From the NCBI GenBank assembly GCA_012840925.1, contig DUVS01000019.1, positions 1-64,000 on the forward strand: DNA of 64,000 bases, given 5' to 3'. The translations under genes and the position numbers were made by a program. This document shows positions 20,869-63,737 of this stretch, piece after piece. How positions within the stretch are numbered: the first letter of the stretch is position 1; the number at the start of each line of letters is the position of its first letter. Under the pieces are notes generated by a model. That model did not search any database, had not been told where the DNA came from, and worked only from the letters and a program-made list of their open reading frames with translations. This DNA is from Bacillota bacterium (lineage in GTDB: Bacteria > Bacillota > Limnochordia > Darwinibacteriales > DTU012).

Positions 20869-20897
20869 TTGACATATCAGAAAATTGAAGCTATAAT
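20869..20897 (+). promoter_or_regulatory. Consensus sigma-A promoter upstream of the structured RNA region
   Basis: TTGACA (20869-20874) and TATAAT (20892-20897) match consensus perfectly with 17-base spacing. The expected start is near 20904. No protein gene follows for 700 bases; the region downstream contains long-range complementary segments and then the TPP riboswitch. Confidence 0.9.
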
Positions 20898-20903
20898 AAA
20901 ACT

Positions 20904-21290
20904 GAAACAACATACTTACAGAGTCATCGAAAGGGGTTGTGGCCCGGAAAGTGGGTGATAAATGCAGGGAATTGACAGAACAGATAGAAAGGGAAAATAA
21001 AATTACAAAGGATTATCACATAAAAAAATAATACCGTCTCCCTTGGGTACTAGCATGTCGATTCCGAAAGGGCGTAATAGATAAACTGCTTTGGACTGAA
21101 CAACTCAAAACATAACTTTGGGTCCGGCAAAAAGGTAAGGCTTGAACTCCAACTGACAGGAAACCCCCTGACAGTCAGCGCAGAATACCGTCTCCCTTGG
21201 TTCCGATCGGTGTTCAAATCCAAAGCAGACACTAAGCGTCAGCAAGGCAAATTCCAACTTCCTACCGGAACGCTAGTCTGAGAAAAAAGT
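20904..21290 (+). ncRNA. Candidate structured non-coding RNA of unknown family
   Basis: Several complementary segments nest into one fold: ACTAGC 21049-21054 with GCTAGT 21272-21277; TTCCG 21062-21066 with CGGAA 21266-21270; CTGCTTTGGA 21086-21095 with TCCAAAGCAG 21219-21228; GAACA 21098-21102 with TGTTC 21211-21215. A separate 5' domain is closed by GTGATAA 20955-20961 with TTATCAC 21013-21019, and ACAAC 20907-20911 can pair with GTTGT 20936-20940. There is no open frame with a ribosome-binding site. It has its own consensus promoter. It does not resemble RNase P RNA, tmRNA or a T-box. The 3' end is unclear, as I find no convincing terminator before the TPP element. It could be an independent RNA or part of a long thi leader. 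Confidence 0.6.
21030..21200 (+). repeat. Two copies of a 17-bp direct repeat inside the structured RNA region
   Basis: AATACCGTCTCCCTTGG occurs at 21030-21046 and again at 21184-21200, 154 bases apart. Copy one lies 5' of the outer stem, copy two inside the multi-branched part. Both can form a small ACC/GGT hairpin, and their CCCTT could pair with AAGGG tracts nearby. Confidence 0.7.
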
Positions 21291-21360
21291 AGGTCACAAT
21301 CTCTTTTGATGAATAGAGGAATTTCTCGTCTTTCGGCGAATATATTATCAACAAAATAAT

Positions 21361-21450
21361 ATCCGCTAGGGGAGCTTTTTCGAAAGCTGAGAGAGGTATA
21401 TACCGAAACCCTTAGAACCTGTCAAGGTAATACTTGCGGAGGGAAGCGGT
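21361..21450 (+). promoter_or_regulatory. TPP (THI-box) riboswitch aptamer
   Basis: The aptamer shows CTAGGGGAGC, GCTGAGAGAGG, ACCCTTAGAACCTG, GGTAATAC and GCGGAGGGAAGCG in the conserved order. P1 is formed by CCGC 21363-21366 and GCGG 21446-21449. An intrinsic terminator follows 30 bases later, so thiamine pyrophosphate is expected to promote termination before thiT. Confidence 0.95.
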
Positions 21451-21480
21451 GGTGCTTGGAGATAATATGTCGCCTTGATT

Positions 21481-21511: not shown

Positions 21512-21610
21512 GTAGTGAAGTTTAGCGAGATGTGGGCGGAGCGTATTCCAAATGCAAGCTCCTGCCGCTGAAGTCTTGTAGTCGGGAAGTTTACAAAGGA
21601 GGTATTTGCC

Positions 21611-22144
21611 TTGAAACGAATCAGTCTTACTGTTCAGATGGAAGTTGCAGTTGCTGTCGCATTGGCGGTGGCACTGTCGTTTTGGAAGGTATTTACAATG
21701 CCTCAGGGCGGTTCAGTATCTCTGGACATGATTCCGCTGCTGCTGCTGGCGGTGAGGCGGGGGACACCTGTAGGGTTGCTGGGCGGTTTGCTGTTTGGAT
21801 TGCTCAAATTGCTCATTAATCCGTACATTGTACATCCGGTTCAGGTTGTCCTTGATTACCCACTAGCGTTTGCCGTGTTAGGATTTGCGGGATTATGGGT
21901 AAGATATGGAACAAAGCACGTTGATTATATCCGTAATGGCTTATCAATTGGTTTTGGGCTTGCTCTGAGATTTCTCAGCCATCTCATTTCCGGAATAATC
22001 TTTTTTGGCGAGTTCGCACCGGAAGGAACTCCAGGGTGGCTCTATTCCCTGACATACAATGCTGCTTACTACTTGCCGGAGATGATTGTGGCACTAGTGG
22101 TGGTTTTAGTGCTAATTAGCCGTAGGGAGATTGCTTTAAGTTGA
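21611..22144 (+). CDS. thiT: Thiamine transporter substrate-binding subunit ThiT (ECF S-component)
   Basis: ThiT binds thiamine and works with the ECF energising module to import it. The 177-residue hydrophobic protein has about six membrane helices and the family motifs MPQGGSVSLDMIPLLLLAVR, FGEFAPEG and YNAAYYLPE; conserved Trp, Tyr and Glu in these regions contribute to thiamine binding in characterised ThiT. The start is TTG 21611 after an ideal AAAGGAGGT at seven bases spacing. It is under the TPP riboswitch and overlaps thiN. Confidence 0.93.
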   Translation: MKRISLTVQMEVAVAVALAVALSFWKVFTMPQGGSVSLDMIPLLLLAVRRGTPVGLLGGLLFGLLKLLINPYIVHPVQVVLDYPLAFAVLGFAGLWVRYGTKHVDYIRNGLSIGFGLALRFLSHLISGIIFFGEFAPEGTPGWLYSLTYNAAYYLPEMIVALVVVLVLISRREIALS

Positions 22145-62954: not shown

Positions 62955-63737
62955 ATGAGTGATTTATTGGAGAAGACGAGAAAGATCAGTAGATCGATTC
63001 AGCAATCAGTAGGTTATGAAGTGGATCTCAACCACATAGCAGAAGTACTTGCGGATGTTATAGGAGTCAGCGTTTATATTCTTAACAGAAGAGGCAAGCT
63101 GTTAGGGTCTGCCGTGTATGAACCATTCGGAACCAGTGTCATGGAAGACGAAGTATTAGCTCAGGGCGCTATAGCTGCTGATTTCAACCAAGAAGTGCTT
63201 AAAATCGACGTGACCAGCGCGAATCAAAAAGGTCAGAGGCAGGTTGTCTATAATCCTGAAGTTGTCAGCCCTTTTGCTGATAAGAACATTACTATTGTCC
63301 CCCTGGCCGGTGGTGGTGAAAGGCTGGGAACTTTGATTCTGGCCAGAGTCAACAGCGACTTTACTGATGATGATTTGATTCTGGCAGAGTATGGTGCGAC
63401 CGTAGTTGGAATGGAAATTGTCAGAGCCAGATCCGATCAGATTGAGGATGAGGTCCGCAAAAAAGCGGCTTGCCAGATTGCAATTGGAACCCTGTCCTTC
63501 TCTGAGCAGGAAGCAGTCGAACACATTTTTGATGAGCTGGATGGTGAAGAGGGATTATTAGTGGCAAGCAAAATTGCGGATAGTGTGGGTATAACCCGCT
63601 CGGTAATTGTCAATGCACTGCGGAAACTGGAGAGTGCGGGAGTGATCGAGTCCCGTTCCTTAGGGATGAAAGGCACATACATCCGGGTACTCAATGAATA
63701 TTTCCTGGATGAGTTAGCTAAGCATCGTACTCGTTAA
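62955..63737 (+). CDS. codY: GTP- and branched-chain amino acid-responsive repressor CodY
   Basis: CodY represses starvation and stationary-phase genes in rich conditions. The N-terminal GAF domain (about 1-155) has RRGKLLGSAVYEPF and IVPLAGGGERLGTLILARV; the C-terminal winged HTH carries GLLVASKIADSVGITRSVIV and NALRKLESAGVIESRSLGMK, nearly identical to Bacillus. The N-terminal third is more divergent, so ligand specificity might differ. The product has 260 residues. ATG 62955 or TTG 62949 starts it after GGAGG. It is followed by a terminator and flgB. Confidence 0.96.
   Translation: MSDLLEKTRKISRSIQQSVGYEVDLNHIAEVLADVIGVSVYILNRRGKLLGSAVYEPFGTSVMEDEVLAQGAIAADFNQEVLKIDVTSANQKGQRQVVYNPEVVSPFADKNITIVPLAGGGERLGTLILARVNSDFTDDDLILAEYGATVVGMEIVRARSDQIEDEVRKKAACQIAIGTLSFSEQEAVEHIFDELDGEEGLLVASKIADSVGITRSVIVNALRKLESAGVIESRSLGMKGTYIRVLNEYFLDELAKHRTR

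Follow-up and report, generated by a model that had tools for sequence, protein, structure and literature searches.

The stretch of DNA analysed here (the window, 64,000 nucleotides) comes from a 1.72-Mb draft genome of the order Darwinibacteriales within the class Limnochordia. It contains, behind a sigma-A promoter on the forward strand, a non-coding interval flanked by rpe and the thiT TPP riboswitch. The promoter (20869–20897) is formed by TTGACA (20869–20874), a 17-nt spacer (20875–20891), and TATAAT (20892–20897). It matches the consensus at 12 of 12 positions, and the first-pass annotation was right to call it perfect. The spacer contains TCAGAAAATT, the order-wide form of which is TCWGANAATT. 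Judged from the promoter, the putative small RNA starts at 20904, and it extends at least to 21311, where the 3′ arm of its closing helix P1 ends. The first-pass annotation had let the RNA end at 21290, which is too short, and it missed the strongest conserved helix because P1 runs past that position.

The two arms of P1, CATCGAAAGGGGTTGTGGCC (20925–20944) and GGTCACAATCTCTTTTGATG (21292–21311), form 20 uninterrupted pairs in the window. The 5′ arm is followed by a purine-rich element resembling a Shine-Dalgarno (SD) sequence (20948–20963), which is conserved by inspection, includes the 5′ arm of helix P2 (GTGATAA, 20955–20961), and in most relatives reads GAAAGGAGG or GGUGAU. The 3′ arm of P2 (TTATCAC, 21013–21019) begins a conserved AUYACCAC motif with an A-rich linker. 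The most conserved element of the RNA is a C-rich loop, which reads ACCGUCUCCCUUGGG in the window and is repeated there. Its first copy is the seed of hairpin 1, UACC-GUCUCCCUUG-GGUA (21032–21049), of which UCCCUGGGC is invariant in A1. The second copy, AATACCGTCTCCCTTGG (21184–21200), is identical to the first over 17 nt, and a second copy is also present in G006, G009–G011, and G036. No clear intrinsic terminator was found after P1 in the window genome. Two elements of the neighbouring unit lie outside the RNA: a sigma-H-like promoter, AGAGGAATTT..GGCGAATAT (21317–21345), which was read by eye and unscored, and the TPP riboswitch of thiT (21358–21461; Rfam match, 77 bits).

Comparison of the window with the covariance models of Rfam 15 gave nothing above chance for the RNA even at E=10, and no known family was recognised in the window, 19 relatives, or 10 more distant loci. 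RNase P RNA, the core of which the first-pass annotation had found to be missing, does not match (RF00010), and the RNase P RNA of this genome is located elsewhere (C20:175957–176289). The same holds for 6S RNA (RF00013), which is encoded at C52:43113–43295. A phage origin was considered and gave no match.

The distribution of the RNA was determined in 37 genomes of the order, mostly draft assemblies from metagenomes, in 36 of which rpe was located. A promoter with 17-nt spacing and the core of the RNA lie downstream of rpe in 35 of these 36 genomes, and the TPP riboswitch comes next in nearly all of them; in G011, the contig stops before any TPP element could follow. The 17-nt spacer was present in 36 of 36 genomes. 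RNAs with the related core UUCCCUCAUGGGCAUGGCUGG also follow rpe in other Limnochordia orders, where homology is judged from position, promoter, and core motif and not from an alignment. At the loci from other orders (L074, L077, L084, L085, L087, L094, L095, and L096), the RNA has the longer core CCCUNAUGGGCAUGGYUGG and its own promoter. A phylum-wide scan with the class-wide core pattern gave matches in 20 of 398 genomes, including some Limnochordia; at the inspected loci outside the class, the matches resembled chance and lay inside genes. This comparison shows that the predicted transcript is conserved, and it is a previously undescribed putative small RNA family, kept across a group of largely uncultured bacteria.

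The fold calculated from the window sequence is unremarkable, with a z-score of −1.21, and 11 of 100 shuffled sequences fold equally well. The argument of the first-pass annotation, that its series of complementary segments is unlikely to have formed by chance, therefore fails. The segments it listed do exist, including a 10-bp pair (21086–21095/21219–21228) and the 7-bp P2, but some of them are not conserved; inspection of relatives showed that the 10-bp pair recurs in G003 and not in G006. Across seven relatives from the window's own family, 131 of 139 cells of P1 are paired, as opposed to about 47% when one side is slid, and both sides have changed at 10 of the 20 pairs in seven genomes. 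The consensus of family f3 (15 genomes, 33 pairs) contains the closing stem P1, a CCA[NCUCCC]UGG mini-hairpin, a UUCGC..GCGAA hairpin, and a terminator. Both-sided changes affect 21 of its 33 pairs, compared with 9.0 in shuffles (59 cells versus 19), and 95.9% of the cells are paired, compared with 34–46% after sliding. The covariation supports the predicted P1, the apical hairpin, and, in most relatives, the terminator. P1 is longer in the window's own family than in f3. The first covariance model was built on f3, and it therefore scores the window weakly, at 18.7 bits. Homologous intergenic regions, compensatory changes in P1 and the f3 consensus, and the lack of an Rfam family bear out the proposal of the first-pass annotation that the interval encodes a structured RNA of a family that it did not recognise. 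In the predicted single-sequence fold, the first seed is partly paired, and the SD-like element within the RNA could pair with the seed and sequester it.

A messenger for a small protein, translated in frames like KKIPTPWA across the core, is hardly conceivable. Some relatives have open frames, with an SD-like GGAGG upstream; however, 1-nt core indels that distinguish close relatives (AAAAA to AAAAAAA; CCCUGGG versus CCCUUGGG) shift the frame and rule out this reading, there is no consistent start, and the stems carry both-sided changes. The earlier claim of no coding potential is thus confirmed, and no convincing open reading frame was found on either strand of the RNA stretch.

Candidate targets were sought as complements of the 12-nt seed, with one mismatch allowed, in G000, G003, and G006, which belong to one genus. 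Apart from the RNA itself, the search returned the same orthologous leader, that of comEA, in all three genomes and T2 leaders in two, and the comEA and T2 sites lie directly upstream of the SD. The comEA product has a helix-hairpin-helix domain (PF12836, HHH_3) and a partial match to the NCBIfam comEA model below its cut-off, and the next gene is comEC (PF03772, 1.8e-52). The helix-hairpin-helix gene ahead of comEC is comEA. Homologues of comEA were matched in 36 genomes of the order, some being other helix-hairpin-helix proteins; the leader was readable with confidence in 29. A complement of the genome's own loop is visible by eye in most of the 29 and is weak in G002 and G008. Three further leaders (G009, G010, and G013) are compatible, with duplex energies of −20.8 to −31.1, and the complementarity of the comEA-comEC leader extends to nearly all of 32 genomes, being weak in a few. 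Sites are also present in the radC leader in six of six genomes (this one and five further) and in the comFA leader of this genome. RadC was identified by PF04002, and comFA by a DEAD domain with a cysteine-rich region, followed by comFC and flgK. The leader of a pilB-like ATPase gene is without a site (−17.5). T2 is a protein of about 165–180 residues whose gene has, in G003 and G006 (L226, L227, L251, and L252), a leader containing a 15-nt complement of the seed. It had no Pfam or NCBIfam match, and its homologues were found in 11 genomes and not in that of the window. A lipoprotein gene of this genome (L309:1895) and its orthologue in G003 (L239) have the same leader site. The first-pass annotation gave no function for the RNA; these complementarities point to predicted antisense control of competence genes.

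Any SD offers a C-rich loop some complementarity, and the specificity of the pairing was evaluated by permutation. The summed duplex energy of the 29 comEA leaders with the loops of their own genomes is −770.1 kcal/mol, compared with −661.6 (sd 15.8) for swapped pairs, a difference reached in 0 of 5000 permutations. With one genome per genus, in a set that keeps G005 beside G000, own pairs sum to −429.1 and swapped pairs to −354.3 (sd 12.4; 0 of 20000 permutations). Relative to 161 other leaders with ribosome-binding sites (RBS), the median fraction pairing at least as well was 1.2% and the worst 12%; controls were as good as the own pair in about 8% of cases in G015 and G020 and in 12% in G008. 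Since permutations do not fully remove phylogeny, compensatory cases provide the stronger argument. The loop of G005 has changed to AUCUCUUCUCUUGGGUG, and the T2 leader of the same genome, CACCCAAGAGAAGAGAU, is complementary to it at 17 of 17 positions, while its comEA leader follows the changed loop through G-U pairs. The single loop U in f3 (CCCUGGG) is matched by one target A, and two by two in f1 and g8. The radC leader of G012, GGGAGUC, faces its own loop GACUCCC at −35.0. Seed and targets are thus complementary and covary between molecules.

Duplex energy was also used to rank 1123 leaders of open reading frames, drawn from 1.26 Mb (about 73%) of this genome; radC came first, comEA fifth, comFA sixth, and the lipoprotein gene ninth. 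The chance that radC, comEA, and comFA would all fall among the top six is 8.5e-8 if they are named beforehand; comEA was known from the seed search before the ranking, and radC and comFA were not. The result concerns three heads of competence operons recognised among the top hits, not an enrichment by blind genome-wide annotation.

In all cases, the leaders of comEA, radC, and comFA share a 10–12-nt sequence with the RNA gene, where it is inverted and on the opposite strand, as it might be if it were the DNA operator of a transcription factor. Among 42 leader-loop pairs, however, 33 of the transitions departing from Watson-Crick pairing are compatible with G-U pairs and three are not (p 1e-7), an asymmetry expected of an RNA duplex and unpredicted by DNA binding; the same pairs contain 36 transversions, some of them artefacts of misaligned divergent leaders. 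Moreover, within the RNA gene the sequence is located a long way downstream of the promoter, and the leader site always adjoins the SD and is always antisense. We regard the operator as most improbable.

It is also quite improbable that the RNA is a cis-acting leader controlling thiT, as a riboswitch or attenuator paired with the TPP element, with a P1 3′ arm that in some relatives also serves as the 5′ arm of the terminator. The RNA is syntenic upstream of TPP-thiT, its termination is weak in the window, and by inspection the 3′ arm of P1 overlaps the terminator hairpin in G007, G008, G001, and G002. Read-through is possible because of this overlap in the four f1 relatives and the lack of a clear terminator in the window. 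In f3, however, the terminator and P1 do not overlap, and in G023 a tandem array of three copies of the RNA separates rpe from the TPP element (L033:2300–3300); every copy has a promoter and a terminator of its own, which argues for a discrete trans-acting RNA and not a leader. In copies 1 and 2 of G023, the SD-like element is lost and the seeds are altered (GCUCCCUGAGC and GCUUUCCCUGAGC). The RNA behaves as an autonomous unit throughout the comparison, with its own promoter in 36 of 36 genomes and terminators in relatives. The sigma-H-like promoter separates the RNA from the TPP element and makes a transcription start of its own probable for TPP-thiT; it also suggests stationary-phase transcription of the thiamine transporter. 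In other orders, the RNA lies downstream of rpe with no TPP element within the stretch scanned, and the covarying targets are located elsewhere. A segment of the RNA (21243–21260) is 83% complementary over 18 nt to the thiT RBS (21596–21613); this complementarity is present in G000 and G006 and lost in G003, and an antisense action on the neighbouring thiT is unsupported.

Based on these comparisons, we consider it likely that the RNA is a multi-target antisense regulator that blocks the translation of DNA-uptake genes. It would be a discrete, structured small RNA, presumably transcribed by sigma-A RNA polymerase and acting in trans. P1 would close a multi-branched structure exposing one or two C-rich loops, NCUCCCU(U)GGG, which may pair over about 10–17 bp with the conserved SD-adjacent site in competence mRNAs, chiefly those of comEA-comEC, comFA-comFC, and radC. 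As a rule, the predicted comEA duplex spans about −35 to −18, with a median gap of 2 nt to the SD and overlap in some genomes. Since it ends within the 30S footprint, a block of translation initiation is the most likely outcome. DNA uptake would be kept off or tuned until the level of the RNA falls, and the RNA is probably a brake on the acquisition of genes by transformation. We assume repression from the position of the site in the leaders. The RNA might instead pair with the competence leaders and activate them, by opening their structure or stabilising the mRNA, and the moderate predicted accessibility of the comEA SD in the absence of the RNA (mean 0.35) would leave room for this. Activation is nevertheless rather unlikely, because the site abuts the SD, the classical position for repression, and no conserved anti-SD structure was noticed upstream of it.

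The signals that might set the level of the translational repressor can be proposed from the promoters. The TCWGANAATT motif in the promoter spacer resembles the right half of a CodY box. It is kept across most of the order and absent from G009–G011 and G036. CodY-family proteins are encoded in 32 of the 37 genomes, in this genome at 62964–63491 of the window. The half-site and the CodY-family genes make nutrient control a lead, not a result. Several target operons are apparently transcribed from sigma-H-like promoters, and in Lactobacillus sakei and Staphylococcus aureus, competence genes are known to be under the control of sigma-H (PMC3364868, PMC3486894). We speculate, tentatively, that the class-wide RNA of Limnochordia is a dedicated post-transcriptional gate of transformation, repressed by a CodY-type regulator and opposing sigma-H, so that nutrient state might set the uptake regulon through a common leader box.

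The small RNAs RsaE/RoxS, LhrC, and FsrA of Firmicutes use C-rich motifs to occlude SD regions. The Limnochordia RNA is similarly predicted to place a C-rich loop over the SD region; however, those RNAs have other structures and regulate metabolism, iron, or virulence, whereas the RNA described here is directed at competence and has no Rfam match. It resembles 6S RNA in having a long closing stem and a single gene, but 36 of the 37 genomes have a separate 6S gene. To our knowledge, small RNAs that control competence are known from Legionella and streptococci only, and no report came up when the open literature was searched for Limnochordia in combination with small RNAs. RocR of Legionella pneumophila represses comEA and other uptake genes by pairing with their leaders and works with the ProQ/FinO protein RocC (PMC9977716, PMC9674577). 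The predicted pairing in trans with the leaders of comEA and other uptake genes through a shared target box was also found for the Limnochordia RNA, which is a likeness of function, not homology: RocR is gammaproteobacterial and RocC-dependent, whereas the Limnochordia RNA is closed by P1 and has one or two C-rich loops. The csRNAs of Streptococcus pneumoniae, members of the CiaR regulon, restrain competence by pairing with comC, and their related copies act additively (PMC4507080). They are likewise small RNAs of a Gram-positive bacterium, and the RNA described here is predicted to restrain competence by base pairing as they do, but they target the precursor of a pheromone under the control of CiaR, whereas the Limnochordia RNA would target the uptake machinery and matches no Rfam family. 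The best explanation of the comparative data is that it would work like RocR and the csRNAs, with no demonstrated relation to either.

If this is true, an unrelated RNA family follows the same logic in largely uncultured, digester-associated Firmicutes, and the gating of uptake genes through a shared leader box would be a case of convergent evolution. The bacteria that carry the RNA would be naturally transformable now or have been so recently, and the RNA would offer a concrete handle to check and switch transformation. The covariation between loop and leaders would also mean that, even for unculturable organisms, sequence data suffice to read out the target genes of such an RNA.
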